The translations under genes were made by a program, and so were the position numbers. 64,000 nucleotides of DNA from Nitrospirota bacterium (GTDB lineage Bacteria; Nitrospinota_A; UBA7883), in the NCBI GenBank assembly GCA_024275315.1, contig JAJRZK010000062.1, positions 1-64,000 of the forward strand. Reading direction: 5' to 3'. Within the stretch, counting starts at the first letter, position 1, and each line of letters begins with the position of its first letter. Below, piece after piece: positions 1,607-19,110 of this stretch. Under the pieces are notes generated by a model. It had not been told where the DNA came from, did no database searches, and worked only from the letters and a program-made list of their open reading frames with translations.

Positions 1607-1853
1607 CGATCAGCCCCATGAGTTTCAGCGCCCAAGCGCCGTAGGTGATTGTCAGGGCGAGGACAAAGAACCACAATCCGATGAAGAACTGTTGCCGCCG
1701 CACCCCGTACCAGAAAGACAGCGTTAAAAATACCGCGGCGAACACCCGCGCCCAGAATCCGTTAAGGATCGTGTGGAACAGCGCGCTCCAGAAGGAGACG
1801 TACTCGTCCGGTGTGAAGTGGTTCAGCGGGTCGAGGTACTCCAAAGCCTCCAT
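1599..1853 (-). CDS. Small membrane protein
   Basis: 84 aa with hydrophobic segments; overlaps the next gene. Confidence 0.55.
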   Translation of the reverse strand: MEALEYLDPLNHFTPDEYVSFWSALFHTILNGFWARVFAAVFLTLSFWYGVRRQQFFIGLWFFVLALTITYGAWALKLMGLIDG

Positions 1854-1856
1854 TGT

Positions 1857-3185
1857 CTACTCGTACTTCGGGCTGACGTCTACGATGTCGCGGATTCTGC
1901 CTTCCTTGATAGATTCGAGCTCCGAGACGGTTTCGGTGAAGGCCTCGGCCCTGAACGGCGTGTAGAAACCCTTTAGAACTTTGCCGTCCCGCATCCTTAC
2001 GACGAACTCACCGCCGAAGTAGCCTTCCTTGATCAGGTCATCGGCGATGGCGCCGTATCCGCGTAAACGCTGGACAATAGTGAGGAGGATGTCGCGCCTC
2101 AGGTTCTCATCAGCGGCGGCCATGGCGATCAGGCCGTCGTTGATCTCTTTGCCCAGCGCCTTGACCGCTTCCCACATGGTTTTCGCCTGGATATAGACGT
2201 AACCATCGCTCATTGAGAAGGCCACCCACCGGCCGCCTTCCATACGGTTTACGCGCGGCTTGAGTTTTTCAAGGAACCGCTCCGGAGAAAACCAGGGAAG
2301 TTCTACCTCGCCGGGCTTCTTTGGTTCGTCTTTTACGGGCTTGTCCGCCTGCGCTGGCGTTGAATATGTTTTCTCAAGGGCGGAAACACTGCTCGCGGTT
2401 GCTGCCACGCCATTTTCCTCTTTATACGCTTTGGCGTGCTCCGCCAGTTCACGTCTGCGGGCTCTCTGGTCAGCCTCGCGCAAAGCCTGCGAGAACGAAT
2501 CGCGCGGTCGGCCGTGATGATCCCGCACGGCCTGCAGGATTTCTTTCGCGTAGCTCAGTTTCTTGAACTGCGGGATTGTCTCCAGCGCCGTTACGCTGAA
2601 CAGCGGATGATCGCCCAGCGAGTAGCCGGATTTCCTGTATCGCGGAAGCTTGCCGATGTCATGAGCCAGGGCGGCTATCGTTGACTTAGCCACGCTGGGA
2701 CCTGTCGCGTTCTCCTTGATCATCTCTTCTGCAACGTGGATCGTGTGCTCATACAGCGGGACCTTCGCCAGGACGCCGAACGTTGTCTTCTCGAGGCTCG
2801 CCTCCGGGTCTCCTTCCGTTCCCACCACCGATGGGCAATCGCCTTCCTTGTCCAGGAGTCTTAGAAGCTTGCGCGCGACTTCGCCGGCGGCGCCGTTGAA
2901 GTACGTCCTGCCGTCGATATGCGTCTCGCAGAAACGCTTTACTTCCATGTTCTCGAAATGAGAGCGCTCGATTTCCTTTTCCACGGTTTGCATATCCGCT
3001 CTCCACAGCCTCGCGATTTCCTCGATGCGAAGCGCTGTCTCCTTACGCTTGCTCCACAACCCGGAGATGCGCTTCAGCGCGATCCTTTTCCTGTCCCTTC
3101 TCCACGGCGGAATAACTAGCGACAGCGGCGCTGCCATTATGCAAATTAGACCCATAAACAAAACCATCCATAGACGGTCACTCAT
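1857..3185 (-). CDS. HD-domain, TraI-like hydrolase/relaxase-region protein
   Basis: HTIHVAEEMI...ALAHDIGKLPRYR...DHPLFS...VRDHH HD-domain signature; N-terminal TM; likely start MSDRLWM overlaps the end of the coupling-protein gene. Confidence 0.6.
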   Translation of the reverse strand: MSDRLWMVLFMGLICIMAAPLSLVIPPWRRDRKRIALKRISGLWSKRKETALRIEEIARLWRADMQTVEKEIERSHFENMEVKRFCETHIDGRTYFNGAAGEVARKLLRLLDKEGDCPSVVGTEGDPEASLEKTTFGVLAKVPLYEHTIHVAEEMIKENATGPSVAKSTIAALAHDIGKLPRYRKSGYSLGDHPLFSVTALETIPQFKKLSYAKEILQAVRDHHGRPRDSFSQALREADQRARRRELAEHAKAYKEENGVAATASSVSALEKTYSTPAQADKPVKDEPKKPGEVELPWFSPERFLEKLKPRVNRMEGGRWVAFSMSDGYVYIQAKTMWEAVKALGKEINDGLIAMAAADENLRRDILLTIVQRLRGYGAIADDLIKEGYFGGEFVVRMRDGKVLKGFYTPFRAEAFTETVSELESIKEGRIRDIVDVSPKYE

Positions 3186-4527
3186 CGATCGGCGCTTCCG
3201 GGAAACGGATATCGAGGTAAAGCTCGGAGACGTCACTCGTCCTGCCCTTGTACATGCCGGAGTAGGTCAGCATGTAGAGCTCCCGCGCCTTGAGGTTCAG
3301 AAGATCGGAAGGCTGCAGCGTCTCCTCCTCGATCTCACGCATGGATATCCCGCCCCCGACATTCAGAATCGGAGAGAACGTTTTGATCTCGCCGAAGTGA
3401 GAGGCCGCATATGCCGCCGTCGCGCTGTCCGGCACGCGCATGAAGATTTTCGTGTTCGTGTTGTCCAGGATCACGTTGCCGTAGTCTTTGCCCAGCGCGG
3501 CGTATAGCTGGGAGACAGACTGGCAGAAACCGTGGAGCCACACGCCGGCTCCTCCCGCCTTGGCGAACAGGTCGTCGATGCCGTAGTAGAGCAGGTTCTG
3601 CGCCTCGTCCATATGGAGGCAGAGAGGAGGGCTAACTTTACCGCCAGAAGAAAATATGCGCCCGACAAAACTCTGGATCATGGAGACAACGACCTTGCCC
3701 ACAGTGAACGCTGCTTTACGAGTGAGCAACGAGCCGAGTTGGGCGACCATGATGACCCGCTCGCCGCGTTGAAGCCTTTTGATGAACCTGTTCTCGTCCG
3801 CCTTGCCGATGATTTTCCCGATGTTACCGGAGGTAAGCTCCATAAGGGCGACACGTAAGGACGATGATACTTTGCCGTAGTAGTCCTGGGGCGACTCGAC
3901 GATCTTCCTCATGTCCTGGGAGAGTTGCCTGGCATCATCTGAATCTATGGCGTCGATCTCCGTCGTCAGCTTCTCAAGCGACGCCTTGCTCATCAGGTTC
4001 TTGACGTCGTTGAGGTTGAAGGTTGGACGTCGCCCCTCGCACTCGGCCAGCATGATGAGCGCCTGCACGATCACCAGGCTGATCTCGTATGCCACGTTAT
4101 AGAAGAAACGCTCCTTGCCGACCTCCATGCCGGAGACGATGTGCCCCACAAGCTCCTCCGGCATGTAGTAGTGCGACAGTGGATCGAGGATGGCCGATAC
4201 CTGCGGGAATATCGGCGTCACGAGGATAAGCTCCTCGTGGCGGTTTTCCTCGAACGCGGTCTGGACGATCTTGGAGAAAAGCTCGGTGTCGCCTTTCGGA
4301 TCGATAACCGCCACGGAATAACCTTTGCGAATATCCTGCTCAATGAGGTTCTCCATGATTTTGGTTTTGCCGACACGAGTCGTGCCGAAACACCAGAGAT
4401 GGCCCTTGCGGTCGTCGTCCGCGATGGTAATCGGCTTAGATTCGCCAAGCGTGGAGAGATCGAACCCTTCGCCCAATACCGTCTCGGCGGACCTGTTCCG
4501 GTTTCGCCTCAAAAGCCCGAAGACCAT
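3178..4527 (-). CDS. TraD/VirD4-like conjugative coupling ATPase
   Basis: Walker A region LWCFGTTRVGKTKIMENLIEQDIRKGYSVAVIDPKGD; LCLHMDEAQNLLYYG Walker B region. Confidence 0.75.
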   Translation of the reverse strand: MVFGLLRRNRNRSAETVLGEGFDLSTLGESKPITIADDDRKGHLWCFGTTRVGKTKIMENLIEQDIRKGYSVAVIDPKGDTELFSKIVQTAFEENRHEELILVTPIFPQVSAILDPLSHYYMPEELVGHIVSGMEVGKERFFYNVAYEISLVIVQALIMLAECEGRRPTFNLNDVKNLMSKASLEKLTTEIDAIDSDDARQLSQDMRKIVESPQDYYGKVSSSLRVALMELTSGNIGKIIGKADENRFIKRLQRGERVIMVAQLGSLLTRKAAFTVGKVVVSMIQSFVGRIFSSGGKVSPPLCLHMDEAQNLLYYGIDDLFAKAGGAGVWLHGFCQSVSQLYAALGKDYGNVILDNTNTKIFMRVPDSATAAYAASHFGEIKTFSPILNVGGGISMREIEEETLQPSDLLNLKARELYMLTYSGMYKGRTSDVSELYLDIRFPEAPIDE

Positions 4528-5237
4528 CGAACCTTGATCCTCTCCCCGAGCTCATCCGAAACGCGCTTGATCGTATCCCGAGGCAGGTATCTGTTCGAAT
4601 GAACAACATTTGCGCTTCCGACGATTCTCTTGACGCACTTGATCCTCGCGTCCGGGTTCCCTGCTTCTCTTTCCAAAAGCAGCTCAACGAATCGCCGGGA
4701 TGTTCGGCTGAGTGGAATCTCAAGGCGCGAAATTCCGTCCTCCTCAGAAGCGGCGCGGACTTTCAGAACATAAAAAGGGAGCCTGTCGCCTCGAACATAT
4801 GTTCCCCTTTCACGCGGCGGTTGATGACGGAGAGAACACGTTCCGATCACGTCTTCGCCAGCCACTGTTTTGATCCGGACATAGAGAACACCTGCCGAGT
4901 TGATATTGAAAACGGTTCCGTGGACTAGCGTATTGGCCAGATAAGAGAATCTTCCATTATCCGTAACGGCGGCTCGCTCATGCAGGTTGCGTTCTATGGT
5001 TTTCTTCGCCGCTACGAACGCGCTACGCGGAACGCCGCGCAACCACTCGGCCTTCACGCCTGTCAACGAGTCACGAAAGACCCGGACGATAAACGAGCTG
5101 TTTTCGTTGAAAAAACCTTCCACATCGCGCCCGAGCTTCGAGGTGAGGCTCATCGTGATCGCCCTTTCGATCTCGTCGCGCACAACCTCTTCAGGCAGAC
5201 CGTATTTCTCCACAAGCTCGCTGACGTCGACGGCCAT
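4509..5237 (-). CDS. Hypothetical protein of the conjugative-element operon
   Basis: 242-aa ORF, overlaps the coupling-protein gene, same strand. Confidence 0.5.
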   Translation of the reverse strand: MAVDVSELVEKYGLPEEVVRDEIERAITMSLTSKLGRDVEGFFNENSSFIVRVFRDSLTGVKAEWLRGVPRSAFVAAKKTIERNLHERAAVTDNGRFSYLANTLVHGTVFNINSAGVLYVRIKTVAGEDVIGTCSLRHQPPRERGTYVRGDRLPFYVLKVRAASEEDGISRLEIPLSRTSRRFVELLLEREAGNPDARIKCVKRIVGSANVVHSNRYLPRDTIKRVSDELGERIKVRWSSGF

Positions 5238-5310
5238 CGGTTTCTCGGGGAATTCATGGAGATCGAGGATGAGATAAAGGCGGGAGGCAGAACGTAGACT
5301 ATATTACCGG

Positions 5311-5748
5311 TCACCGCCACTCCTCGGCGTCGGCCTGCTCCTCGATATCCTCGTCCGCCGCGGGTTCCGGCGAGGTCTCAACGCCATCCGGCTCGGCCGA
5401 GGCATTGGTCTCCGTTTCCGTATCCCGCCGACTCGGCAGAAACTTTACTCGGCTGGCGATGATTTCTATTTTCTTTCCTCTCTGGCCATCGCGTTCCCAT
5501 ACGCGCTCACGCAAGCGGCCCTCAACCAACACCGGAGAACCCTTCGAGAGATATTGCCTGCACGTCTCCGCCTGCGGCCCGAAGACCACGGAATTGATGA
5601 ACAGCGTCTCGATGACCGTCTCCCCGTCCGGCCGTTTCAAGCCGACGTTGCACGCCACCGGCAGACGCGTCACAGGCGTTCCCGAGACGCTCTCCCAGAA
5701 CTCAGGATCACGCGTCAGGTTCCCAGCGATAATCACCCGATTGAACAT
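5311..5748 (-). CDS. ssb: Single-stranded DNA-binding protein
   Basis: MFNRVIIAGNLTRDPEFW...VTRLPVACN...ETLFINSVVFGPQAETCRQYLSKGSPVLVEGRLRERVWERDGQRGKKIEIIA: OB-fold SSB pattern; acidic C-tail. Confidence 0.9.
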   Translation of the reverse strand: MFNRVIIAGNLTRDPEFWESVSGTPVTRLPVACNVGLKRPDGETVIETLFINSVVFGPQAETCRQYLSKGSPVLVEGRLRERVWERDGQRGKKIEIIASRVKFLPSRRDTETETNASAEPDGVETSPEPAADEDIEEQADAEEWR

Positions 5749-5963
5749 GGCGTCCTCCCAAACGATTTATCTCTCGTAGAGCCGCGCCTGATCTATTTGC
5801 GTGGCTTTACTTATATGTTCGTGAAGTGGCAAGACGCTGAAGGGAGGTTATATGGAGACCGATCAAAACCCTGTCCTGAATTTCTCAGGCAAGAGGGAAA
5901 TCCCGGTCAACGTGGGAAACTTCTCCCACAAAAAAAATTTAAAAACTTTTTTGATTGCGCGGG

Positions 5964-5987
5964 GTGTGGGGAATAGTGTGGGGAATA
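5964..5987. repeat. Perfect 12-bp tandem duplication GTGTGGGGAATA x2 next to the tRNA 3' end
   Basis: GTGTGGGGAATAGTGTGGGGAATA read directly. Confidence 0.8.
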
Positions 5988-6029
5988 ACCTTAGCGGATT
6001 ACTCGGAAATTCTGTAAGTTATCGAAAAA

Positions 6030-6105
<76 letters not shown>

Positions 6106-6177
6106 CCGAAAATACAAGTTTAACCCAACGATCTTCAAAATAAAAGAGGCCGGGTTTTTCCGAAATTCACCATACAC

Positions 6178-7278
6178 CTACGCCACAGGCGCGCCAGCGG
6201 TGATAGCGGCTTCGGGCAGATCCTTGGCTTCACGTGGAGGTTTGCGGTGGAACGAGTTCATGGCGTGTGCTATGCACCCGCCGGTGCACTGCCCCCTGCG
6301 CAAATAGTCGCATGTCATACATTCGCCCATGCATCCGAGAGAGCGGAACGGGGCCACCTGTTGCGTATAGAACCGGACGATATCTTTTCTTGTCCTGAAT
6401 TTGTCGAGCCGGGTAAGCAACACCTCGGAAAGAGGGAAACAGTGCCAAACGTCCAGATCCTGCCCGATGTCCACTATGGGCGTGCAGACACTGCTGAACC
6501 CTTCGCTGTTCTTGGCTAGGAACCCGATCTCCTCCTCGGTGAACATGCATAACACCATGCCGCAGTCGAACCCGATCAGTATGTCTTCTTTTACGCAGGT
6601 TCCGGCCATTTGCGTGATGGCCGCGCCTGCTTTTTTGTAGTCGGAAGGTTTGAGGAACTCGTTGTTCCGGCCGACGATCGGCTGTGCGATACCGATCCGG
6701 ATTCGTCTGCGCAATTTATATTTGTTGATCAGGTCTATAAGGAACCGGTACTCGAACTCGGCCGATGTCAGCGAGATTCCAAGCACAACCTTCTCGCCGA
6801 GCCGCTCGAGCGTATAGTTCATCATCTCTCTTGACCGCTCCGGATCGTTGGCCTGCGGGGATACGTTGCAGAGCATGTTCAACTGTTCCGGGGTGAGCCT
6901 GCCAAGGTGGTCGGCGGTGGATCTGGACATTATTCCGTTGGAAAAAAGCTGGACCCTGAACCCGCGGCCGATGGCCTCGTCAACCATCTCCAGAAACTCC
7001 GGATGCAACGAAGGTTCCCCGCCCAGCATCCTGACCGAAAGGTCGCCCGAGGTTTCGAGAAAATCGAGCGCCTTCCTGAAATTTTCACGGGAGATGGCGG
7101 ATTGGGGCGCCTCGCCGTCACCTCGGCTCAGCCGCTCCTGGGCGAAACAGAAAGGACACTTTCTGTTGCATACATCCGTGATCAAAAGATTAGCCATGGT
7201 TTCCTGCCATGCGTATGTTACCGTTTCAAATCCCGCTTCCGTAGATTGCGTATACCGGAGATTTGCGGGAGATTGCAA
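6178..7278 (-). CDS. Radical SAM protein with C-terminal SPASM-like Cys cluster
   Basis: CNRKCPFCF (CxxxCxxC), GGEPSLHPEF, C-terminal CMGECMTCDYLRRGQCTGGC. Confidence 0.85.
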   Translation of the reverse strand: MQSPANLRYTQSTEAGFETVTYAWQETMANLLITDVCNRKCPFCFAQERLSRGDGEAPQSAISRENFRKALDFLETSGDLSVRMLGGEPSLHPEFLEMVDEAIGRGFRVQLFSNGIMSRSTADHLGRLTPEQLNMLCNVSPQANDPERSREMMNYTLERLGEKVVLGISLTSAEFEYRFLIDLINKYKLRRRIRIGIAQPIVGRNNEFLKPSDYKKAGAAITQMAGTCVKEDILIGFDCGMVLCMFTEEEIGFLAKNSEGFSSVCTPIVDIGQDLDVWHCFPLSEVLLTRLDKFRTRKDIVRFYTQQVAPFRSLGCMGECMTCDYLRRGQCTGGCIAHAMNSFHRKPPREAKDLPEAAITAGAPVA

Positions 7279-7361
7279 ATAGTATCATGAACCGGACCGG
7301 ATTTCATCCCGCATCCACCGGGCCAATTTTTTTTCACAACGGCCGGGCGGATAAACTATCC

Positions 7362-7367
7362 TATAAT
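7362..7367 (+). promoter_or_regulatory. Candidate -10 box TATAAT upstream of the HPr-kinase-like gene
   Basis: TATAAT about 43 bp before the GTG start; no clear -35. Confidence 0.3.
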
Positions 7368-7409
7368 GCGTTTTGAAAAAAAATCTCCATTTACAACCAG
7401 ACGGATCGC

Positions 7410-8414
7410 GTGAACAACGAAGACCAGTATTATACCTTCGCAGGGTTGACCATACGGCATGTGGATACACCGCCGTTTATCGCCAAGGCGATACAAAGCG
7501 CTTTTCCACTATGCAAAACCGGACCGAAAGAAGACTATGTGACAGTGAAAGGAACCGCTCTTGAAGACGACGCCTTTTACGACGGCATGCCGCCTTTTCT
7601 CCGGAAAGTATACGACCTTGCCCCATACGCCGACGACCCGATCATAGTTTCAGGTTCGAAAGATGAAACCGGGATTATCTCCAAGGGAGAAGTGGTCTCC
7701 ACTTTCGCCCTCGGCAAGGAGCCCTTTTCAGAGATTTCTCTCTGTTGCCAGCGATTCAGCGACAGGAAATCGCCGATCCTGCTGAACATGGTTCTGCTGG
7801 CCATGATCCGGGAGCTGTTCCTGCAAAGGGGGAAAGTACTGCTCCACGCCAGTTGCGTGGTCGACGGCAATGGTGATGGAGTCATCTTTCCGGCGGACAG
7901 CGGGGGCGGAAAAACGACCACCGCCCTGTCCATGATAAGGGAAGGTTTCAACCTTCTCGCCGATGATCTTATCGTACTGTCGCTTGACGGAAATGATGTC
8001 ATAGCCGAGGGGATTACAGAGCCCATAAACCTTACCGGAAAGACCGCGTCTTTTTTTCCTGAACTTTCCCGATATGAAAAAAGTTTCGAGCAACCGCAGG
8101 TTATCAAGATACCTGTGCATCCGGACGAACTGCTGGGGCCGGGACGCCTTGTCCGGCGGGCGACAGTAGAGGCGATAGTCTCTGTGAGAATAGGAGGCGC
8201 CAACCCGGAGCTGACACCGGTTCCCGCGGCGGCCCTGCTGAGCCAGATTTTAAAAGGCAACACGTTTGCCACCGGGGCTCATATTTCACCCAGTAGCCTC
8301 GATGTGATCTGGCCACTGCTGGAGCGATCCGAACGCCTGGAGCTGAAGACAGGCCCCGACCCCGTCGCGATGGGGAAATTCCTGGCGGAAAAGTTCAGGC
8401 AGACAGCCGGCTAG
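7410..8414 (+). CDS. HPr kinase/phosphorylase-like protein of the RiPP-associated type
   Basis: LLHASCVVDGNGDGVIFPADSGGGKTTTALSMIREGFNLLADDLIVLS: P-loop and DD motif of HprK-related kinases. Confidence 0.75.
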   Translation: MNNEDQYYTFAGLTIRHVDTPPFIAKAIQSAFPLCKTGPKEDYVTVKGTALEDDAFYDGMPPFLRKVYDLAPYADDPIIVSGSKDETGIISKGEVVSTFALGKEPFSEISLCCQRFSDRKSPILLNMVLLAMIRELFLQRGKVLLHASCVVDGNGDGVIFPADSGGGKTTTALSMIREGFNLLADDLIVLSLDGNDVIAEGITEPINLTGKTASFFPELSRYEKSFEQPQVIKIPVHPDELLGPGRLVRRATVEAIVSVRIGGANPELTPVPAAALLSQILKGNTFATGAHISPSSLDVIWPLLERSERLELKTGPDPVAMGKFLAEKFRQTAG

Positions 8415-9310
8415 AACATAACTCTGTAGAGGAGCTGAAAACCCCTATCGCTATCATACCCCATGCTCAAAGCCTGCAATCCGAAATTCATGCTGTAGTT
8501 GAATCCGAGTTTTTGCATGTCCCTGAGCGACACCTCAAAACTGTTATAAAAATTCATCGACAGGTTCAGGCTGTTGCTGGCGGACAGCCAGATATTCATG
8601 TCCAGAATCCTGTTTTCCGGATTTACATACGCCGGCCTGGCGCCGAACATGGCGTGCTCGGTGTAACCGGAGTTATCCTTGTACACGGAAAAGGGTCTGG
8701 TTATCGGCTCTACGATATCATGAATCCTGCGAACCGGTTTTAACAGCATCAACGATCGCTTCAGGACGTTAAAAGCCTCCTGCCGGGCGATCTCCTCAAC
8801 CCGCTGTTGCGTCCTGAGGTCGGAGTTGGCTCCCACGCTGTCGCTTGAGCTGTTGAGGAACGAAAGATTGTAATCGGTGAATACGTTGTTGCGCCCCTGC
8901 GGGCTGTAGAATGAGAATGAACTGTCACAACCACCGCTGTGCGTCGAAAAACCACGGCCCTTGACCATGCGCATCCTCTTTTTCCCCGATTTCGGCTCGA
9001 TACCGCTATCGCAATCGCTGTTCGTCCGCTCAACTCTCTGTTTTCGCCAATCAAACTTTACAGACTTTTCGGCTTTGGGCTCGATTTCCGCATCCCCGCT
9101 GATGGCGGAAGGACCGGCCATCCAGCTTTCGGGAAGGGACAAGGCGCTTATGGATTTGCCAACAGCCGGCTTAAGCTCCAGCTTCAGATCAATATTCGTT
9201 TTTGGAAGGGCGGACGCGTGCGGCGCCAGCGAAAAACAGGTGGAGCCAATGACCGCCGCCATCACCCATAATATTGATCCGATATTGTCCAGTTTCATAG
9301 TTCGATCCAC
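8411..9310 (-). CDS. Secreted/outer-membrane-like hypothetical protein
   Basis: N-terminal signal-like segment (SILWVMAAVIGSTCFSLAPHASA); alternating aromatic C-terminal stretches ending in ...LLYRVMF. Confidence 0.55.
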   Translation of the reverse strand: MDRTMKLDNIGSILWVMAAVIGSTCFSLAPHASALPKTNIDLKLELKPAVGKSISALSLPESWMAGPSAISGDAEIEPKAEKSVKFDWRKQRVERTNSDCDSGIEPKSGKKRMRMVKGRGFSTHSGGCDSSFSFYSPQGRNNVFTDYNLSFLNSSSDSVGANSDLRTQQRVEEIARQEAFNVLKRSLMLLKPVRRIHDIVEPITRPFSVYKDNSGYTEHAMFGARPAYVNPENRILDMNIWLSASNSLNLSMNFYNSFEVSLRDMQKLGFNYSMNFGLQALSMGYDSDRGFQLLYRVMF

Positions 9311-9627
9311 GATTTAATTGACCTGAACCTCGAAAGAGCAATAGTGGCGCCAATACGGGGCAATAAAGGACTATTGGATATATATTCAATATATACAATA
9401 TAATACAGAATAGCTCGATGTGACCGCTCATATGCGGAAGGGGGAAATTATGACCGGGCGGGCGTTGGATGGAAGGCAACTTTTTCTTATCGGCACAAGC
9501 TTTGGAAAAGTTAATAATTTTTTTTCGCCGTCAACAGGGACCTGATCTCCGCATGATATCAATCCGCTTGACCGATCCGGTGGGATTAGACTAACCTTAT
9601 GATATCCTGACGAATTTCACACGGGCT

Positions 9628-10197
9628 GTGAGCAGGCGCAAAGACCGCGCGGGGAAACAGCGGTCGTACAGGTTTTTTCCAATGAATTTTATCTCCGGCG
9701 AAACCGATGAGTTATCTCTAAGAACGCGACTCTGGATACTTTTCCAGATCCCGCCTTTGCTATTGCGCGCCTGGTATATAAAGGACAGGTTGCAATCTTT
9801 GCAAATAGCGTTGCCCGATCCCGGGTTCCCCGTGAAAATTTCTGAAAAAGGCGCTGACAAAGTGGCTCGATGGGTAACAGGAATTCTTGAGTCGTTGCCC
9901 TTCAGAACGGGGCATTTTTGCTTTTACAGATCAATTGTTTTGGTATATATTATTAGACGTTTGGGGGTTCCCGCTGTCCTTAATATCGGGCTGACCAACT
10001 TTGGCGCCAGGTCGAAAACCCGGGGGCACTGTTGGCTGACGATAGATCGGAGGTTGTTGTTCGAAAAAGTCGACACTGGTAACCTGTATCCGTTTGAGAT
10101 GGGATACAATAAAACAGGCATTTGTTACTGGGCCGGTTCCGCTGGTAATGGCGGCGAAGGCCGGGCCGAGGCCGGAAGGGTCAAGCGGCGAGATTAG
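9628..10197 (+). CDS. Lasso-peptide B2-like transglutaminase/cysteine protease
   Basis: RTGHFCFYRSIVLVYIIRRLGVPAVLNIGLTNFGARSKTRGHCWLTIDRRLLFE: Cys...His...Asp arrangement of the B2/transglutaminase-like family; adjacent to PqqD-like gene. Confidence 0.75.
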   Translation: MSRRKDRAGKQRSYRFFPMNFISGETDELSLRTRLWILFQIPPLLLRAWYIKDRLQSLQIALPDPGFPVKISEKGADKVARWVTGILESLPFRTGHFCFYRSIVLVYIIRRLGVPAVLNIGLTNFGARSKTRGHCWLTIDRRLLFEKVDTGNLYPFEMGYNKTGICYWAGSAGNGGEGRAEAGRVKRRD

Positions 10198-10218
10198 CCG
10201 AAAAGGGAAACGGGATTG

Positions 10219-10503
10219 ATGAGCGATGGACTTGACGGTAGCGAAGTTTACACGATATGCGAGGATTTCACATGGCGGGATGTGAACGATGAAGTCGTCG
10301 TCCTGAACGTGAAATCCGGTGAGTATTTTACGTTCAACGATGTAGGTCGGTTTGTTTGGAAGGCTATTTCTTCGGGGAAAAACGTCGATGAATCTGTCCG
10401 GATGGTGGTGGATGAATATGATGTCGAACCCGAGAAGGCAGCTTCTGAAATAAGGGATTTTATCCGAAACATTGTAGCGCAAAAAATGTTGAAAAAAACC
10501 TGA
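10219..10503 (+). CDS. PqqD-family RiPP recognition element (B1-like)
   Basis: DEVVVLNVKSGEYFTFNDVGRFVWKAISSGKNVDESVRMVVDEYDVEPEKAASEIRDFI: PqqD fold signature. Confidence 0.85.
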   Translation: MSDGLDGSEVYTICEDFTWRDVNDEVVVLNVKSGEYFTFNDVGRFVWKAISSGKNVDESVRMVVDEYDVEPEKAASEIRDFIRNIVAQKMLKKT

Positions 10504-10524
10504 TTTGCAAAAGGGGGCATAATC

Positions 10525-10671
10525 ATGCAGGAAGACGTAGCAAAAAACACCGTAACAGGCAGTGAAAACCAGGAGATAAAAAAGACCTACGAGACTCCCC
10601 TGTTCAAGGGCCATCCGCCGCTGATGTCGGTCAGTCAGTGGTACTACTACTATTATTATTACTGGTATTAA
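10525..10671 (+). CDS. Putative RiPP precursor peptide (48 aa) with WYYYYYYYWY C-terminus; absent from the supplied ORF track
   Basis: Direct translation: MQEDVAKNTVTGSENQEIKKTYETPLFKGHPPLMSVSQWYYYYYYYWY*; 21 bp after the PqqD-like gene; leader spacing matches the lasso leader motif. Confidence 0.85.
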   Translation: MQEDVAKNTVTGSENQEIKKTYETPLFKGHPPLMSVSQWYYYYYYYWY

Positions 10672-10682
10672 TATGCCGCGGG

Positions 10683-10790
10683 CGGGCTCTTCCGCAAAAT
10701 ACCCGACGCCTGCGGCGTCGCTGACACATGTGATGTCGCGGACACATATGGTGTCGCGGACACCCTCCGTGTCACTGGCGTTTGCGTGGC
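10683..10790 (+). repeat. Degenerate 18-bp tandem repeats and overlapping inverted repeats between precursor and radical SAM gene
   Basis: GTCGCTGACACATGTGAT / GTCGCGGACACATATGGT / GTCGCGGACACCCTCCGT; inverted repeats GACGCC-TGC-GGCGTC, GGTGTC-GCG-GACACC, GACAC-CCTCC-GTGTC. Confidence 0.75.
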
Positions 10791-10923
10791 GAACGTTTGG
10801 CGGGGGCGGCTCCTCTGTTTACGTATGTAATGCGCTAATCAGCTAGCGGGGAGCGTCTTGGTTCGAAGACGTTTCCCGCTTGCTTTTCCTACCACCTTTA
10901 AACCCAGCAAAAACCACTGTCGA

Positions 10924-12369
10924 ATGAAACCGGACACAATTGCGCCATCTATGATGATGGACGCGCTGGCGGCTTCAATGAAAATACGAAAAGCCGTAGA
11001 GCTGAATCCGGCTCCGACCGGAGAGCTGGTCGATTTTCTGTCAGGCGCGGATGAAGCCCTGGCCAACGAAGCTTTCAGGGCCCTGCTAAGACTCAACCCG
11101 CTGGCGGCCTTGCAGGAACGGTGGACCAACGATTCGCCTGTGACCGGTTTGCGCGGCGAGGGTGTCCCGGACTGGATAATGGAATCGTGCGGCGGCTGGG
11201 GGGAGGATGGCGATTTGACAGACCTGCTCGTAGCAAAACTTGGCCGAATGGATCAAAGCCGTGTAAACGGGTTTCTCGAACGGCTAGCCGGGTTTGATGG
11301 GGCCAAAAGAGAGCTGTACAAAAGGCTCAGGCGCAAGGGACGCCCGGGGCTCGCCGGCAAGTTCGCCCGCGCCGTATCGGCTCGATCGGGCCGCCAATAT
11401 CCCGGCCAGATCAGCATATCGCCCACGATGTTCTGCCAGCTCCATTGCGAGTATTGCGTCTCCGCCGGGATCGACGAGGAGCTCTCTTCTGAAATTCCGC
11501 TTGACACGATGTTCGACCTGCTGGGCTGGGCCAGGGAGCGGGGCGTGCGCCGGATCGGGTTCACCGGGGGAGAGCCCACCACCTACAGCGGGTTCACCAG
11601 CGTTCTCGAAAAGATCGGCGAGCTGGGGCTGGAATTTTTCATGGCCACCAACGGCCTGATTCCAGCCGAAAAAATGGAGGCGATCATCAACGCCAGGCCG
11701 CTGTGCGTCACGATGCACCTGACGCCGGAGGTGATGGAATCGGGGTCCATCCGCGCGTTTACCCATAACGCCCGCAGGTTCCGGGAGGCGGGAGTATACG
11801 TAATTCTCCGTTGCAACTTCACCAGCGCCGACGACGATCCTGCTCCGTTTGTGCGATTCGCGCACGAGGCGGGCATCCACGAAATCAGGGTGGCCGTCCC
11901 CGTGCCCAACGAAAACAGGGTAAACACGTTTATCCCTCAAGGCTCCCTGTCCGATTTCGGGTTGTTGCTCTCCGGCCTTGTGGATATGGCCGCCGCGAAA
12001 AGGGTTGCGGTGATGCTTTCAAAACCGTTTCCCATCTGTAAACTGCCGGAGGACAAGGCCAGGTATTTTATCGCCAACGGATCGATGTCGAACAGTTGCC
12101 CGGTTCATCTGGCCGGTTTTTCCAACAACCTCATAGTCTACAGCGACCTCACCTTTTCGCCCTGTCTGGGGCTGAACGTAAGGAGCGAAAAAGATATACG
12201 ACAATTCAGGGGAACCAGGCAGGCCGCGCGCGTTTTCAAGGGGCGGGTGAAATCTTTCATACGCAAACCACTGCTTGCCGAGTGCGGCGGTTGTCCCCTG
12301 TACCCGGGCGGCAGATGTATCGGAGCGTGCCTGAGCTACAGGGACGCCCCGGGCGCCAAGGTTTCATAA
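10924..12369 (+). CDS. Radical SAM peptide-modifying enzyme with N-terminal extension and SPASM-like tail
   Basis: ISPTMFCQLHCEYCVSAG (CxxxCxxC), GFTGGEPTTYSGF, C-terminal CGGCPLYPGGRCIGAC. Confidence 0.85.
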   Translation: MKPDTIAPSMMMDALAASMKIRKAVELNPAPTGELVDFLSGADEALANEAFRALLRLNPLAALQERWTNDSPVTGLRGEGVPDWIMESCGGWGEDGDLTDLLVAKLGRMDQSRVNGFLERLAGFDGAKRELYKRLRRKGRPGLAGKFARAVSARSGRQYPGQISISPTMFCQLHCEYCVSAGIDEELSSEIPLDTMFDLLGWARERGVRRIGFTGGEPTTYSGFTSVLEKIGELGLEFFMATNGLIPAEKMEAIINARPLCVTMHLTPEVMESGSIRAFTHNARRFREAGVYVILRCNFTSADDDPAPFVRFAHEAGIHEIRVAVPVPNENRVNTFIPQGSLSDFGLLLSGLVDMAAAKRVAVMLSKPFPICKLPEDKARYFIANGSMSNSCPVHLAGFSNNLIVYSDLTFSPCLGLNVRSEKDIRQFRGTRQAARVFKGRVKSFIRKPLLAECGGCPLYPGGRCIGACLSYRDAPGAKVS

Positions 12370-12379
12370 AACCCGGGCC

Positions 12380-14182
12380 ATGGAATATTCGATCAGCGCC
12401 GCGCGCAAAGGAGCCGCCACAGGAGAGGGAGGCGCCATCAACAGCGTGAGAGTCTCCGGCAAAAACTTCGTGCTGTTTCTCTGGAGCTTTGCGGCGCCAT
12501 ACAAATCCAGCCTTCTTCTGGCCCTTGGCGTCTCCCTGCCGATGGTGGGGATCACCGGCGCCATCCCATGGATCCTGAACAGGGCCACGGACCTTCTCTC
12601 CACCGGATCGAGCCTTTCGACCGTGCTCTACTGGATGGCGCTGGGGCTTGCGGCGCTGATATTGAAAAGCGCGCTGGAGATAACCACCGGCTATATTCTC
12701 ACCATCCTGCATATACGGATCACCAACGACATCAGGAACGACCTCTACGAAAAGATTCATAAAAGCCCGTTGGAGTTTCACTCCCAAAACAGGTCGGGCG
12801 AAATCGCCAGCCTCATAAGCAACGACGTACAGGCCGCCGCCGGTGGTGTGCTGGAGATATATTCCATGGTCTGGCAGAGCCCGGCCAGTGTGATCCTTCT
12901 TTTCTGCGTGATGTTCTACTTCAACCCGCTTATGTCGGTCGTAGGTCTGCTGTCCATACCGGTGATGACGGTTTGCGTCATGTGGTCCAGCAAGAGGGCC
13001 AGAAAGGCGGAGCGCAACTACCTCGATCGGCAGGGGCGGATGCTGGGCGAAATGATCGAGGCGCTTACCAACGTGCGCCAGGTCAAGTCTTTCGGGATGG
13101 AAGGGATGCAAAAGGAGAAAGTGGCCGCCAGGGGCGAGGAGATGGTCGGCTATCGGCGTAAAGCGCTTTTGCTGAAATCCATCGTTTCACCTCTGGCAGA
13201 AATAACCAGCGCGATCACGGTGGCGATCATGGTGACCATCGCCTATTACCAGATATCCAACGACATGACCACGACAGGGGCGGTGGTCGGATGTATCGCC
13301 GCCGCGCTGAGCATGAAACGTCCGCTAAAAAGAATATCGGGCTCTGTTGTGGAGGTGCAAAGGTCCATGGCGGCGGTGCAGAGGATAACGTGGCTCCGTC
13401 GGCAGGCGCACAAAGAGCAGGGGCGAGAACCTGTCGGAGGGCGGTTTGAACACCTCCGGCTGGAAAATGTCAGCTTCTCCTATGACGGGAGGAACTATAT
13501 TCTGAAAGATGTCGACCTGGAGATCAGGCGCGGCGACCGCCTGGCCATTGTCGGTCCCAGCGGGGCCGGTAAAAGCACGTTGATAGATATACTGATCGGT
13601 TTTTATCCCTGTACGTCCGGCGCCACGCTGGTGAACGGGAAGGACCTGGCGACGATCGACCCTGCGTCGTGGCGTGAGAAAATAGGGATCGTATCGCAGG
13701 AGACCCTCCTGTTCGACGCCACTATAGAAGAGAATATCAGGCACGGATATCCCCGGGCCACCAGGGACAGGATCACAGAGGCGGCGAAAATGGCCGGATG
13801 CTCCGAAATGCTGAGCAGGCTCGCCGAAGGGCTGGATACCGTCGTAGGTGAAAGGGGGGCCAGGTTGTCCGGGGGAGAGCGTAAACGGGTGGCGCTGGCC
13901 AGGGCGCTGGTAAGACCGATAGAAATCCTTGTGCTCGACGAGGCCACCAGCGAGCTCGACTGGGAGGTGGAACGGGACATACTCGATTGCGTGAACAGAC
14001 TGCAAGACATAACCGTGATAAGCGCCTCGCACAGGCCAAGCGTGATGAAGTATTGCGACAGGGCGATCGCTTTGGGGGGTGGCCATGTGCGCGAAATATC
14101 GCCCGAGGCCACATGGGAAAACATGACAGGCGGAATTAACCGAGCCGGTGAATCCCCGAGCCGGGACATCTCCGCAAATTAA
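12380..14182 (+). CDS. ABC exporter, fused TMD-NBD
   Basis: GPSGAGKSTLIDILIGF Walker A, LSGGERKRVALARALVRPIEILVLDEATSELD signature/Walker B; N-terminal TM region. Confidence 0.92.
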   Translation: MEYSISAARKGAATGEGGAINSVRVSGKNFVLFLWSFAAPYKSSLLLALGVSLPMVGITGAIPWILNRATDLLSTGSSLSTVLYWMALGLAALILKSALEITTGYILTILHIRITNDIRNDLYEKIHKSPLEFHSQNRSGEIASLISNDVQAAAGGVLEIYSMVWQSPASVILLFCVMFYFNPLMSVVGLLSIPVMTVCVMWSSKRARKAERNYLDRQGRMLGEMIEALTNVRQVKSFGMEGMQKEKVAARGEEMVGYRRKALLLKSIVSPLAEITSAITVAIMVTIAYYQISNDMTTTGAVVGCIAAALSMKRPLKRISGSVVEVQRSMAAVQRITWLRRQAHKEQGREPVGGRFEHLRLENVSFSYDGRNYILKDVDLEIRRGDRLAIVGPSGAGKSTLIDILIGFYPCTSGATLVNGKDLATIDPASWREKIGIVSQETLLFDATIEENIRHGYPRATRDRITEAAKMAGCSEMLSRLAEGLDTVVGERGARLSGGERKRVALARALVRPIEILVLDEATSELDWEVERDILDCVNRLQDITVISASHRPSVMKYCDRAIALGGGHVREISPEATWENMTGGINRAGESPSRDISAN

Positions 14183-14189
14183 AATAACA

Positions 14190-15200
14190 ATGAGTGGTAT
14201 CAGCAGAAAACTGGTTCTGGATATGCTCGGGAACGTTCTCGACGGCAGGGAGTCCGGCCCCGAAGCCCTGAACCGGCTCCAGAGAGTCAGCGCGAAAAAA
14301 TTACAGGACTGGGCGGTTACCCACGCGGTGGAGGCCATTTTATTTCAATGGATAGCCAACCTGGGGGATCGGCTCACCGACAGCTCCATAAAAAAAATGG
14401 CCAGGCTCTCCCAGCAAACCATCGTGCGTGACATGATCAACCGCACCACCACCATCAGCGCCGTCAGGGCCATTTCCGAGGTGGAGCCGCAGGTCATGGT
14501 CATCCGCGGGATCAGCCTCGGGGCCACCGTCTACCCCGCGTCTCATCTGAAGCAGAGCGCGGATGTGGATGTCTATATACGGCGGGAAAAGCTGGAAGCC
14601 TGCATAGAACGGATGAAAAAGCTGGGGTATGACATCAATGAAAGCAAGATGGATGAATGGGAGCCCAGGGGAGAGGCGCCCATGTCCCACAAGACCGAAC
14701 CTCGCATGGTGGAGCTTCACTGGAAACTGATAACCTCCCCATCCATGAATCAGCGGCACGCCGTCGACTATGGCGGCTTGTGGAAAAGAAGGGAGGAGCT
14801 CGAAATAGACGGGACGACCATTAATTGCTTCGACATAACCACCAATATCATTTTCTGCTGTATCCACGCGGCCGCCCATCATCAGCTCGACAAGCTGGCC
14901 AGGCTGGTCGACATCAGGCAGATGATCGCGGTTAAGGGCGATGATATCGACTGGGACCGGGTGATAAAAAAAACCAGGGACGCCAACGCCCGGCTCGCCG
15001 TCTTCCACGCGTTGAACTGCGCAAAGCGCCTGCTGGGCGCCCAGCCGCCGGATGAGGCGCTGGCCGCGATCCGGCCCGGTGGTCTCTGGAGCGTGATCGG
15101 GAAAACGGGGCTCACCCACGGCGAGGCGCTTCGGGGCAGGACCGGCAGGATAAGCATATGGCGAAGAAAGCTTTTTCGGGAAGCTGTCAAACGGGTATAA
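14190..15200 (+). CDS. Nucleotidyltransferase family 5-like protein (RiPP-associated type)
   Basis: VMVIRGISLGATVYPASHLKQSADVDVYIRREKLEACIERMKKLGY...ELHWKL...: NTP_transf_5 pattern; starts 7 bp after the ABC gene. Confidence 0.7.
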   Translation: MSGISRKLVLDMLGNVLDGRESGPEALNRLQRVSAKKLQDWAVTHAVEAILFQWIANLGDRLTDSSIKKMARLSQQTIVRDMINRTTTISAVRAISEVEPQVMVIRGISLGATVYPASHLKQSADVDVYIRREKLEACIERMKKLGYDINESKMDEWEPRGEAPMSHKTEPRMVELHWKLITSPSMNQRHAVDYGGLWKRREELEIDGTTINCFDITTNIIFCCIHAAAHHQLDKLARLVDIRQMIAVKGDDIDWDRVIKKTRDANARLAVFHALNCAKRLLGAQPPDEALAAIRPGGLWSVIGKTGLTHGEALRGRTGRISIWRRKLFREAVKRV

Positions 15201-15207
15201 TCGCCAT

Positions 15208-17397
15208 ATGGAACCTGTGACAAGCGATCTCAAACCGGAGCTGGAGCTGGCCGGAGTCTACGACCGGTGGCCGGTCGTAGAGGGCAAGACCAGGCTTTTA
15301 CTGGTGGCGATCAACGTGCCGAACTACTATTCGCTACCGGTCAGAATCCTTTCACTCGTCGCCAGATCTTCCGCGGAACTACGGGAGAAATTCGACACCC
15401 GCTACATAGAGGTGGATGTCAACCAGGAGTTCCCCGGGACGCTGGGGGAGGCGATCGAACGATGGCGGCCCGATATCGCCGCGCTGTCTCTTAACATATG
15501 GAACCGCAACCTGCAGTTGAAACTGGCCCGGAGCATAAAGGAAAAAAATCCGGCCACGGCGATTATCGTCGGCGGGCAGGAGGCGACCAACTCCATCTAC
15601 AACTACCTGGACGCTGTCGAGGATTTCGATTACGTGATTGACGGCGAGGCGGAGATACCTTTCAGGCAGTTTCTCACCGCATGGAACCAGGAGAAAAAAT
15701 CGCCGGACAACATAGATTCCGTGTCCGGCCTTCACTACAGGCGGGGAGGCGTGGCCAGATTCACCGGGCCGGGGCGTGTGGTCACATCCCTCGACGATGT
15801 CCCGTCACCCATCCTCGCTGGTCTGGTCCCGGCGAAATCGAAACAGGCGCTGGGTATATTGCTGGAGGGGTCGCGAGGCTGTCCGATGCAGTGCAGTTTC
15901 TGTTTCGAGGGGAAAAAAGCGGTGAAGGTACGGTCCGCCTCTGTTGAAAAGCTCGAAAAAGAGGCGTTGCACATGGCGTCGCTGGGGGCGATATATTTTC
16001 ATATGCTCGATCCGAACCTGAACATCGGCGGCCGGGACCGGACCGAAAAACTGGCCAGGTTGTTTAAGAAACTTATCGCCACGAACCACGCCACATATAT
16101 CCTGACGGAAGTGTACGCCCACCAGATCAGTGAGAGGACGCTCGAATGCCTCAAAGCGTGCTCCATAATAGACATCGGGTTGCAGACCATCAATCCGGCC
16201 ACGGCCAAAGCCATAAACCGGCCTTTCAACGAGAAGAAATTTCTGCGGGGAATCAATTATCTGCACCAGATAAAATCGTCATTCAACCTGTATCTGATAT
16301 GCGGACTCCCCGAAGAGACGATGGTCACATTTCTCGAGGGGATGCGTTTCATAATCGCGCAACAGCCCAACAGGATATTTTTTAACGAGCTTTGCCTGCT
16401 CAACGGCACAGAGCTTCGATACCGCGCGCAAGAGTATGGCTATGAATTCGACACCAATCCGCCCTACCAGGTCTCCGCCAGCAGGTGGATGTCGAAAAAC
16501 CAGATGGCGGTCACCATAGCCCTGGCCAAGGTTATCGAGCGCCAGTTCAACCTGGCCATGAGAGCCGTGTTCCCCGGAGCCCCGTGGGTGATGGAGAGGA
16601 GCGGCCGGACAGGTGGGGCGGTTGGACAGATCCGTCTGCAAACAGGTTGCTCCCGGGCGTGCCATGGCTGTGTCAACGTTTCGCCGGGGCCCCTGCCGTC
16701 TGACGGGCGGTTGGACGAGCTTTTGCAAACCGGGAACGATATGGATGTCGAGCTTGTCTGCGGGGACATGATGAATATCGAACAGCTGTTTCGGCTCATG
16801 TCCCAATTGCAGTTGGCTGGTGTGGCCAGGATCAAGCTGACCGGGCCCCTGGGAAACTTTGCCAATAGTGGTGAGGTAAAAAACATCCTGTCGCGCGGTA
16901 TATGGCATTTCAAGACTTTCATCGGCGATGACGACAACCTCGAGCAGGCGGGGAAATGCCTTGAAAACATAAAAATCACCTATTCCCTCATAGGCCAGGC
17001 TCTTGTGCGACCCATGCTGGAGGTTGCTCTGGTGGGTGAGGCGATGACAGGCGCTAGGGTAAAACAGCTCATGGATGTCGCGATTCCATACGCCAACTTT
17101 ATCACCGTGCCGCCGGAAATGGTGGACGACGTGGAGGAATGGGCGAGGGCGGTTGCGCCGGCTTTCGAGGAGATGATATTAAAACGTAAAGCCTGGCTGA
17201 AGCTACCGGAAAAGCTGATGAGTGTGATGCTGGAAAAAACCTGCCAGTGGGGAGAGGTGAAAGAACACTTTCGCGCCCTGGGGCTCGTAAGCTATGAGAA
17301 AAACATGAACCCCTGCCTTGTGACATCCTTCGAGGACGATGTCCGCGTCACCCCGGGCGCTTGCGCGGAGGCTCCGGCCTCCAACCAGGTGGCCTGA
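15208..17397 (+). CDS. B12-binding-type radical SAM protein with a second CxxxCxxC motif
   Basis: N-terminal IAALSLNIWNRNLQLKLARSIKEKNPATAIIVGGQEATN; GCPMQCSFCFEGKK at about 15880; second GCSRACHGC at about 16648. Confidence 0.8.
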   Translation: MEPVTSDLKPELELAGVYDRWPVVEGKTRLLLVAINVPNYYSLPVRILSLVARSSAELREKFDTRYIEVDVNQEFPGTLGEAIERWRPDIAALSLNIWNRNLQLKLARSIKEKNPATAIIVGGQEATNSIYNYLDAVEDFDYVIDGEAEIPFRQFLTAWNQEKKSPDNIDSVSGLHYRRGGVARFTGPGRVVTSLDDVPSPILAGLVPAKSKQALGILLEGSRGCPMQCSFCFEGKKAVKVRSASVEKLEKEALHMASLGAIYFHMLDPNLNIGGRDRTEKLARLFKKLIATNHATYILTEVYAHQISERTLECLKACSIIDIGLQTINPATAKAINRPFNEKKFLRGINYLHQIKSSFNLYLICGLPEETMVTFLEGMRFIIAQQPNRIFFNELCLLNGTELRYRAQEYGYEFDTNPPYQVSASRWMSKNQMAVTIALAKVIERQFNLAMRAVFPGAPWVMERSGRTGGAVGQIRLQTGCSRACHGCVNVSPGPLPSDGRLDELLQTGNDMDVELVCGDMMNIEQLFRLMSQLQLAGVARIKLTGPLGNFANSGEVKNILSRGIWHFKTFIGDDDNLEQAGKCLENIKITYSLIGQALVRPMLEVALVGEAMTGARVKQLMDVAIPYANFITVPPEMVDDVEEWARAVAPAFEEMILKRKAWLKLPEKLMSVMLEKTCQWGEVKEHFRALGLVSYEKNMNPCLVTSFEDDVRVTPGACAEAPASNQVA

Positions 17398-17406
17398 AAG
17401 GAGAGG

Positions 17407-17637
17407 CTAGCCCGGTTGCCTCTTGGCCAGCGAGCCGATCATCTTTCTGACTTCCTCTGTTGTGGCAGTGTTATCGATGATTTTGCCAAGAGTTTCGTTC
17501 TGGGTTCCGCCTCTGAGATGTTCCAGGGTGATGTCGGCCATGCCGAAAAACTCCTCCGCCGTCATCCCCTTTTTAAGGGCGGATAAAAATATCTGGATCA
17601 GTTCGTTTTCAAGCTGGGTAGCGGGGTCGTCAGCCAC
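17407..17637 (-). CDS. Small hypothetical protein
   Basis: 76-aa ORF in the gap between the B12-rSAM and glycosyltransferase genes. Confidence 0.4.
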   Translation of the reverse strand: MADDPATQLENELIQIFLSALKKGMTAEEFFGMADITLEHLRGGTQNETLGKIIDNTATTEEVRKMIGSLAKRQPG

Positions 17638-17802
17638 AGTTAACTCCGGTATCGAAAAATATTTTGATATGACTTTGTTTTTGCAATCAGGGTAAAACCA
17701 TGTGTAGCTCCTGTCAAGCGGGCAATCGCGGTGGCTTATAATCCACCTTTATATTGTGATATTCTTTTCCAAACGCTTGCCGGGTGACAGGAGAGGGAAT
17801 AA

Positions 17803-18915
17803 ATGAAAGTATTTCATGTAATCAACCATCTCAGGATGGGCGTGGGCCGTTATCTCGCCGACCTCGCCATGGAGCAAACCAGGGGCCTGGGCTACGAGGT
17901 TAAAGTTTTCACCAGTAACGACGTCGACGACACTTTCAGATCCGATCCCGGGATTGCAGATGAGCTGGAAAACGCAGGTGTGGAAACAAAGGTTGTCGGG
18001 GATGTGTTCCACCGCAAACTCGAGAGTCTCTCCGGCGGCGCCTCCGGCCTGGCGGAACATTTGCCCCAGGACAGGGAAGATGTGGTCGTCCACGCCCATG
18101 GCTCCATGGCCGCCGCCGCGGCCCGTTTTGCCGGAGCGAAAACCCTGGTCTGCACATGTCACGGATGGAGCATGGACAGGCCGGAAGAGTTCGACCTCCA
18201 GGACGCCATGGCCTACCAGATGTGTGACGTCGTGACCACACCGTCGCAATTCTGGGCCGACAGGCTGGCCAACCTGTTCCATCGGGCCGATACCCGTGTC
18301 ATCCCTGTCGGAGTGAACCTGGACAACTTTCCCACCCATCACGAACACAGGAAAAGACCGGGCGATCCCCTGAAAATCGTCACCGTATGCGAGCTGACCA
18401 AAAGAAAGGGTGTCGATATACTTATCAACGCCATGCCCTACGTCTGGGGCAGTGTGGAACGGTGCGAACTGCATATAATCGGCGGGGGAGAGATGGAAAG
18501 AGCCTTGAAGGCAAGGGCCATGGACATGACCGGCGCCGGGCCGCGCATAGTTTTTCATGGCGAGGTTCAGTTTCCATACGAACGGCTCGGCGAGTTCGAC
18601 CTGTTCTGTCTGGCGAGCAGGTCGGACACCATGCCGGTGGCGATGATCGAGGCGATGCTGGCGGGGATGCCAGTCGTCGGTACCGACGTGGGAGGAATCA
18701 GGGAAATGGTGGAGTCCGCCGGGTGCGGGGCGGTGGCGCAACCGGAATCTCCGGAAAATCTTGCGCTGGCCATCGTGAGTGTAATCTCTTCGGACGATAT
18801 GCTGAAGATGGGGACGCTGGCCAACTCATACGCCCGAAACGCCTTTGGCATAAAAAACATCGCCGCCAGGCTGGACGACGTCTACCACAACGCGATCAAC
18901 AAACCGTCCCAATAG
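17803..18915 (+). CDS. Glycosyltransferase family 4-like
   Basis: MKVFHVINHLRMGVGRYLADLA...FDLFCLASRSDTMPVAMIEAMLAGMPVVGTDVGGIREMV. Confidence 0.85.
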   Translation: MKVFHVINHLRMGVGRYLADLAMEQTRGLGYEVKVFTSNDVDDTFRSDPGIADELENAGVETKVVGDVFHRKLESLSGGASGLAEHLPQDREDVVVHAHGSMAAAAARFAGAKTLVCTCHGWSMDRPEEFDLQDAMAYQMCDVVTTPSQFWADRLANLFHRADTRVIPVGVNLDNFPTHHEHRKRPGDPLKIVTVCELTKRKGVDILINAMPYVWGSVERCELHIIGGGEMERALKARAMDMTGAGPRIVFHGEVQFPYERLGEFDLFCLASRSDTMPVAMIEAMLAGMPVVGTDVGGIREMVESAGCGAVAQPESPENLALAIVSVISSDDMLKMGTLANSYARNAFGIKNIAARLDDVYHNAINKPSQ

Positions 18916-18984
18916 GGGTCTCCACCCAATAGTAATTATTTGGCGCCTGTACAATTGCGCTCCGGCGATTCAGGGGAAAAATAA

Positions 18985-19024
18985 GTTGGCGAATCCAAAA
19001 TGTCAAAATACAAAACCAGACCCC
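18985..19024 (+). repeat. Dispersed repeat copy 1 (inverted relative to 35234-35274)
   Basis: GTTGGCGAATCCAAAATGTCAAAATACAAAACCAGACCCC versus complement GGTGGCGAATCCAAAATGTCGAAATGCAAGACCTGACCCC. Confidence 0.75.
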
Positions 19025-19110
19025 TTTTTACTTGGAAGTGACTTGGCTTTACTTATAGATGAGCCGTGGGCTCCCGGTTAAAATGATTTTGGCAAATTGG
19101 AAAAAAAGCC

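Follow-up and report, generated by a model that had tools for sequence, protein, structure and literature searches.

The open reading frame at positions 10525-10671 of the 64,000-nucleotide stretch analysed here (the window) probably encodes the precursor of a RiPP that is modified by radical SAM enzymes and built on a lasso/LPP-type chassis without the macrolactam cyclase; we put the probability of this reading at roughly 0.7. The peptide ends in WYYYYYYYWY. Because related clusters encode peptides with the same leader and different cores, and because the family of one radical SAM enzyme of the cluster (rSAM1) occurs beside Tyr-rich peptides, the product looks like a radical-SAM-modified aromatic peptide of a new kind.

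A short precursor gene with an all-aromatic C-terminus

Translation of the forward strand gives MQEDVAKNTVTGSENQEIKKTYETPLFKGHPPLMSVSQWYYYYYYYWY*, the same peptide with the same aromatic end as in a preliminary description of this DNA (Table 1). Its start lies 21 bp 3′ of the PqqD stop at 10503, the spacing given there, and a Shine-Dalgarno sequence precedes this precursor as well as those of the homologous clusters described below (4/4). The Tyr codons are mixed (TAC TAC TAC TAT TAT TAT TAC) and the leader falls into the lasso-type register, both as had been claimed; Tyr, Pro and Leu occupy positions -17, -14 and -13 from Trp1 if the peptide is cut after Gln38. The only Ser residues close to the aromatic tail are at positions 35 and 37. 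Unmodified WYYYYYYYWY has a mass of 1694.68 Da.

Elsewhere in the window, the longest aromatic run in all six frames is five residues. Among 24 Nitrospinota genomes, the window's own included, the precursor ORF is the sole place with at least six consecutive Tyr codons, the two matches obtained being overlapping registers of this one ORF. The preliminary description had placed the ORF just before a radical SAM gene. The rSAM2 gene is indeed the next one downstream, but "just before" is loose: its frame opens at 10858, its likely ATG is at 10924, and a terminator-like hairpin lies between. This hairpin, a pattern match only, would permit the precursor transcript to exceed the enzyme transcript; RNA structure in the stretch 3′ of the precursor gene was no better than in shuffled sequences.

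Table 1. Features of the precursor and its gene cluster in the window, and precursors of the homologous clusters (last three rows; the hyphen marks the leader/core split)
Feature	Position	Strand	Evidence or remark
rSAM1, ~339-aa radical SAM/SPASM protein	6178-7197	-	Pfam Radical_SAM, 50 bits
HprK-like kinase; LLHAS, GGGKTTT and ADD motifs	7410-8414	+	Pfam Hpr_kinase_C, below gathering score
299-aa protein	8411-9310	-	no Pfam or NCBIfam match
B2-type leader peptidase (Transglut_core3); Cys/His motifs CFYRS...GHCW	9682-10197	+	PF13471, 37 bits, above cut-off
PqqD/RRE leader-binding protein, lasso type, predicted	10219-10503	+	PF05402, 57.5 bits
Shine-Dalgarno-like AGGGGG	10512-10517	+	sequence; seven bases 5′ of precursor ATG
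Precursor peptide gene, 48 aa	10525-10671	+	translation of window
YETPL, predicted YxxP RRE-binding motif of leader	10588-10602	+	sequence and homolog leaders
Putative core WYYYYYYYWY	10639-10668	+	translation; cleavage site placed by Y-17 spacing only
Terminator-like hairpin, precursor/rSAM2 gap	10845-10880	+	pattern scan; 15 pairs, then TGCTTTTCCT
rSAM2, ~481-aa radical SAM/SPASM protein with own ~150-aa N-terminal region	10924-12369	+	Pfam Radical_SAM
MsbA-like ABC exporter	12380-14182	+	domain model matches
NTP_transf_5 nucleotidyltransferase-like protein	14190-15200	+	PF14907, 129 bits; frame opens 14148
B12-binding radical SAM protein, 729 aa	15208-17397	+	domain model matches
GT4-type glycosyltransferase	17803-18915	+	Pfam; after a gap, cluster membership uncertain
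G005 (L007) precursor	15799-15951	-	...AYSKPVIKKTKPVAVVAS-GSGSSGCSNYVARTVGSTYYH
G002 (L008) precursor	6967-7122	-	...PYSKPEIKKHKPVAVVAS-ASCSSDNCNQYCSRTSGGGYYH
L025 precursor	4891-5070	+	...AYVKPTVVKHAAATQVVG-SAGGCNSYSATGCLVANQYYY

A lasso-like set of genes with three radical SAM enzymes

The PqqD-like protein has the lasso RRE TbiB1 as its best PDB match (E 2.5e-10) and scores 52.6 bits with lasso_PqqD_Bac, below the cut-off of 80. The neighbouring B2 protein reaches 29.7 bits with NCBIfam lasso_biosyn_B2 against a cut-off of 33, which the B2 of the homologous cluster L007 passes. Alignment of the HprK-like kinase with its homologs shows that the His, Lys and Asp-Asp motifs are retained; its NCBIfam HprK_rel_A score of 34.9 bits is under the cut-off. 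rSAM1 has the features of a radical SAM/SPASM protein, namely a CX3CX2C motif (CNRKCPFC), SPASM-type auxiliary Cys (conserved Cys 212, 217, 238, 253, 293, 296, 304 and 308 in the alignment) and a predicted SPASM fold. Its AlphaFold model (pLDDT 87) is closest to SuiB in the PDB, with anSME, SkfB and PqqE also among the best matches. The rSAM2 model is of low confidence (pLDDT 60), and rSAM1 and rSAM2 both stay below the cut-off of every NCBIfam family model. For the B12-binding radical SAM protein, the nearest NCBIfam models are C-methyltransferases, at scores far below cut-off. The 299-aa protein is perhaps exported.

The cluster proteins scanned (6178-18915) included no Asn_synthase macrolactam cyclase, no P450 and no SpI-type signal peptidase, B2 being present instead of the last. 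Of the hallmarks of a lasso peptide, B1/RRE and B2 are thus present, and the cyclase, Gly1 and an Asp/Glu at positions 7-9 are missing, in agreement with the earlier claim that a lasso ring is impossible for this core.

Window positions 1-6105 contain genes for a TraD/TraG-like coupling protein, an HD-domain protein (possible relaxase) and an SSB-like protein, and a tRNA-Lys(CTT) at 6030-6105 adjoins the cluster; the arrangement resembles one end of an integrative conjugative element located at a tRNA. Directly 3′ of the cluster, a transposase-like remnant in two frames was read from the translation of 19111-20201.

Homologous clusters share the leader architecture

Homologous clusters were found in two other Nitrospinota genomes, G005 (L007) and G002 (split on two contigs, L008 and L019), and in one Acidobacteriaceae MAG (L025). 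rSAM1, rSAM2, HprK, PqqD and B2 are common to all three, the G002 B2 having been detected by profile on contig C354; identity to the window proteins is 36-39% for rSAM1, 24-27% for rSAM2 and 25-28% for HprK. As far as the contigs reach, these clusters also contain a GT9-type protein, a further radical SAM protein, NTP_transf_5 and TolC/HlyD/MacB-like export genes. The window cluster is a divergent member, because the GT9, further radical SAM and TolC/HlyD/MacB set is absent from it and replaced by the B12-binding radical SAM and GT4 proteins.

Each homologous cluster encodes a short ORF with a YxxP motif, a Ser/Gly/Cys core and a YYH or YYY end, in which we set the leader/core split 17 residues from the Tyr, lasso-style. 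In a second phylum, the L025 precursor lies directly 3′ of PqqD, matching the window, and in the Nitrospinota pair the precursor comes before rSAM1. Because the homologous clusters encode such YxxP-leader peptides, the 10525-10671 peptide is almost certainly a RiPP precursor: a small ORF with an RRE-binding motif lies beside an RRE, a peptidase and an exporter, and this is conserved in the homologous clusters. The preliminary description is borne out in proposing a RiPP precursor beside PqqD, B2 and radical SAM genes, the same leader architecture being present in three homologous clusters, and the test that it set is answered: the homologous clusters use a counterpart of this ORF as precursor, without conservation of the all-aromatic core. 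Since the homolog cores are Ser/Gly/Cys-rich with only a terminal YYH/YYY, the window genome is not the founder of an all-aromatic-core class, as had been suggested; on the sequences compared, that core is peculiar to the window genome. For the same reason, and with three or four Tyr in each homolog core, conservation does not establish that the clusters share a chemistry at Tyr.

The homolog cores share a C-x-x-Y element (CSNY, CNQY, CNSY) ahead of the terminal YYH/YYY, which is absent from the window core; a Cys-Tyr link in these peptides is conceivable.

A single-sequence rSAM2 search for related loci returned no relative, and an rSAM1 alignment search succeeded. Scanning the class of G084 (by ispG, the genome in the collection closest to L025), 295 genomes in all, with an rSAM2 profile gave nothing at 1e-40; the PqqD-type cluster is either rare in that class or escaped the scan. 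An rSAM2 search of plasmids found none.

rSAM1 relatives lie beside Tyr-repeat peptides in several phyla

The alignment-based search of the genome collection with rSAM1 retrieved twenty loci at 30-40% identity. Three are of the PqqD-type set (L022 on the G002 contig, L023 on the G005 contig, and L025). The other 17, together with the Nitrospinota locus G017 (L048), formed a comparison set of 18, in whose fetched DNA no PqqD/B2 set was found. A Tyr-rich ORF (at least 9 Tyr per 30 aa, within 6 kb) lies near rSAM1 in 12 of these 18 loci (L024, L026, L027, L029-L032, L034, L036, L037, L041 and L048) versus none of eight control stretches, a small control set; independent cases are fewer than 12 because several Tat-type loci are near-copies. 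Four of the remaining loci have no Tyr-rich ORF and two more are weakly Tyr-rich. The Tyr-rich loci span Bacteroidota, Ignavibacteria, Gemmatimonadetes, Aminicenantes and Nitrospinota. Their peptides typically have a twin-arginine-like start (RRxALKR) followed by repeats such as NYYSYYYYSYYSDYY, SDYSDYSDY and YSDTYYYYYTYTNY, with up to 24 Tyr per 30 residues. In the rSAM1 tree, PqqD-type sequences stand apart from Tat-type ones with a support of 98/98, and one long-branch Chloroflexota row joins the PqqD-type.

In several Tat-type loci, rSAM1 is followed by a DarE/DynA-like radical SAM enzyme, which could act on Tyr instead, and by a ~280-aa protein. TatC genes occur near rSAM1 in L026 (13820-14641), L036 (7909-8811) and L040 (6285-7040), which suggests a linked Tat route for modified Tyr-repeat peptides. 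The Tat-type loci are apparently an unnamed peptide-modification system found across several phyla. Among plasmids, rSAM1 had two distant matches. In L049 (NZ_CP128402.1, Candidatus Chlorohelix plasmid, 6712-12388), the source of the Chloroflexota row in the tree, a relative of rSAM1 is accompanied by two more radical SAM genes, and the Tat-type protein beside it is Cys-rich, ends in YHYWHPN and has no Tyr repeats. A small L049 protein reads as PqqD-like and has no Pfam match.

By its family's recurrence beside Tyr-rich peptides, rSAM1 is on sequence evidence the most telling radical SAM gene of the cluster, and the preliminary description had not singled it out. We tentatively suggest, at somewhat less than even odds, that rSAM1 belongs to an unnamed family of Tyr-rich-peptide maturases spread over many phyla and serving two leader/export systems, Tat-repeat and PqqD/B2, of which WYYYYYYYWY would be an extreme case.

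A proposed maturation pathway

In the pathway that we propose, the PqqD-like RRE would bind the YETPL leader motif; rSAM1, probably with rSAM2, would act on the Tyr/Trp side chains of the aromatic tail, most likely oxidising or cross-linking them; and the B12-binding radical SAM protein may C-methylate. HprK, NTP_transf_5 and the glycosyltransferase may contribute phosphate and sugar groups, possibly on Ser35/Ser37 if these are kept in the product. B2 would then remove the leader, after Ser-Gln as judged from lasso spacing alone, to free WYYYYYYYWY, and the MsbA-like pump would export the product. Leader binding by PqqD and cleavage by B2 are proposed because of the protein families. The chemistry of each step, the point at which the leader is cut and the sequence of the steps are inferred; for the tail chemistry we rely on the peptides that accompany rSAM1 and the composition of the core. 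Tyr/Trp cross-links are chemically plausible; the cluster equally encodes the means for methylation (by the B12-binding radical SAM protein), phosphorylation and glycosylation.

The kinase would fit poorly if B2 cuts after Ser-Gln, because LppK phosphorylates Ser but leaves Thr and Tyr unmodified (PMC13381572) and the core has no Ser. With Ser only at positions 35 and 37, either the leader is cut nearer the N-terminus than the spacing would indicate, or the kinase acts on something else.

For enzymes that couple or oxidise aromatic residues iteratively, an all-aromatic ten-residue core in a radical SAM cluster would make a striking substrate, and its product might be a redox-active, pigment-like or metal-binding peptide. 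If the proposed role of the rSAM1 family is true, radical SAM and not P450 chemistry would link or oxidise the residues of a fully aromatic decapeptide throughout the chain. The rSAM1 homologs with obvious Tyr-repeat partner peptides offer a testable handle, some being perhaps easier to express.

Alternative readings

An unlikely alternative is a linear phosphorylated or glycosylated peptide resembling LPPs, in which the poly-Tyr run is incidental or structural and the radical SAM enzymes act on non-aromatic positions or at the C-terminus, as MftC does in decarboxylating a C-terminal Tyr. Phosphorylation alone would not call for three radical SAM genes, Tyr-rich peptides are repeatedly found near rSAM1 relatives and the SpI peptidase was not found among the cluster proteins scanned; these points weigh more with us than the presence of the LPP core set (RRE, HprK, NTP_transf_5, MsbA-like exporter and YxxP leader; PMC13381572), the intact kinase motifs and the location of Ser35 and Ser37 directly ahead of the aromatic run.

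We regard as very improbable a redox-cofactor pathway of the PQQ or mycofactocin type that would use up the peptide and turn one or two of its Tyr into a small cofactor. PqqD and a SPASM radical SAM protein do occur here with a short Tyr-containing peptide, and the lasso-like RRE-binding motif is also found in PQQ precursors (PMC13381572), but the PQQ_PqqD model gives 16.6 bits against a cut-off of 46, the PqqE and mycofactocin models are far below cut-off, and the cluster includes an exporter, a kinase, an NTP transferase and a glycosyltransferase. Moreover, the homolog cores are wholly different, whereas cofactor precursors retain the residues that are consumed. The chance is slimmer still that another peptide is the true substrate and the short 10525-10671 ORF, whose all-aromatic core has no relative in the searched sets, is a chance reading frame, given its Shine-Dalgarno sequence, its place directly after PqqD as in L025, the YxxP at lasso distance, the unique Tyr run and a scan of 5800-21000 in which no other short YxxP[ILVFM] ORF reads as a plausible precursor.

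Comparison with known systems

To our knowledge, known aromatic cross-linked RiPPs are made via P450s, copper cyclases, or radical SAM enzymes acting on one or a few residues. In the literature searched we came across no account of this cluster type, nor of rSAM1 in company with Tyr-repeat Tat peptides; a search on Tyr-rich radical SAM precursors and SynChlorMet gave no match, which does not prove absence. Atropopeptides such as tryptorubin (PMC11450843) resemble the window peptide in having a short aromatic core in which biaryl links could form, and differ in their P450, KSLK leader motif and Trp2; no P450 was found among the cluster proteins scanned, and the window peptide lacks KSLK and has Trp1 and Tyr2. 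Streptide, darobactin, dynobactin and the triceptides, RiPPs with side-chain cross-links, share with it the action of a SPASM radical SAM fold on short peptides, SuiB being closest to the rSAM1 model, and the window peptide has none of the known core motifs of those classes.

By model names, the SynChlorMet cassette likewise brings together PqqD-like, HprK-like and two radical SAM/SPASM proteins. Membership of that cassette was rejected, at scores far below the cut-offs (ScmC 15.5/125, ScmD 35/100, ScmE 25.7/400 and ScmF 29/400 bits).

The portion of the RRE-Finder report available to us (PMC7470986) counts about 300 lasso-like RREs beside radical SAM genes as false-positive hits to the lasso model. 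These resemble the window in placing a lasso-type PqqD beside radical SAM genes; that portion of the report gives no precursor, core, chemistry or product for them.

In its chassis the window cluster resembles lasso peptides of the paeninodin/pseudomycoidin type (PMC9266682) and LPPs. The former have PqqD/B1, B2, HprK, an NTP transferase, an ABC exporter and a [Y/W]xxP leader in common with the window, which differs in that no Asn_synthase-type cyclase was found in the cluster, in lacking Gly1 and Asp/Glu in the core and in having radical SAM genes. LPPs, described from Bacillota in 2026, have an RRE, HprK, an NTP transferase and an MsbA-like exporter and no cyclase (PMC13381572), as does the window, where the RRE is discrete and predicted to read YxxP. 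The window differs from them in its B2 in place of an SpI-type peptidase, its three radical SAM genes, its Nitrospinota/Acidobacteriota host group and, if cut at the -17 spacing, a core without the phosphorylatable Ser that is an LPP trait, Ser35/37 being retained only with earlier cleavage. On our reading, the window cluster makes a radical SAM RiPP on a lasso/LPP chassis, distinguished by its exceptional core.
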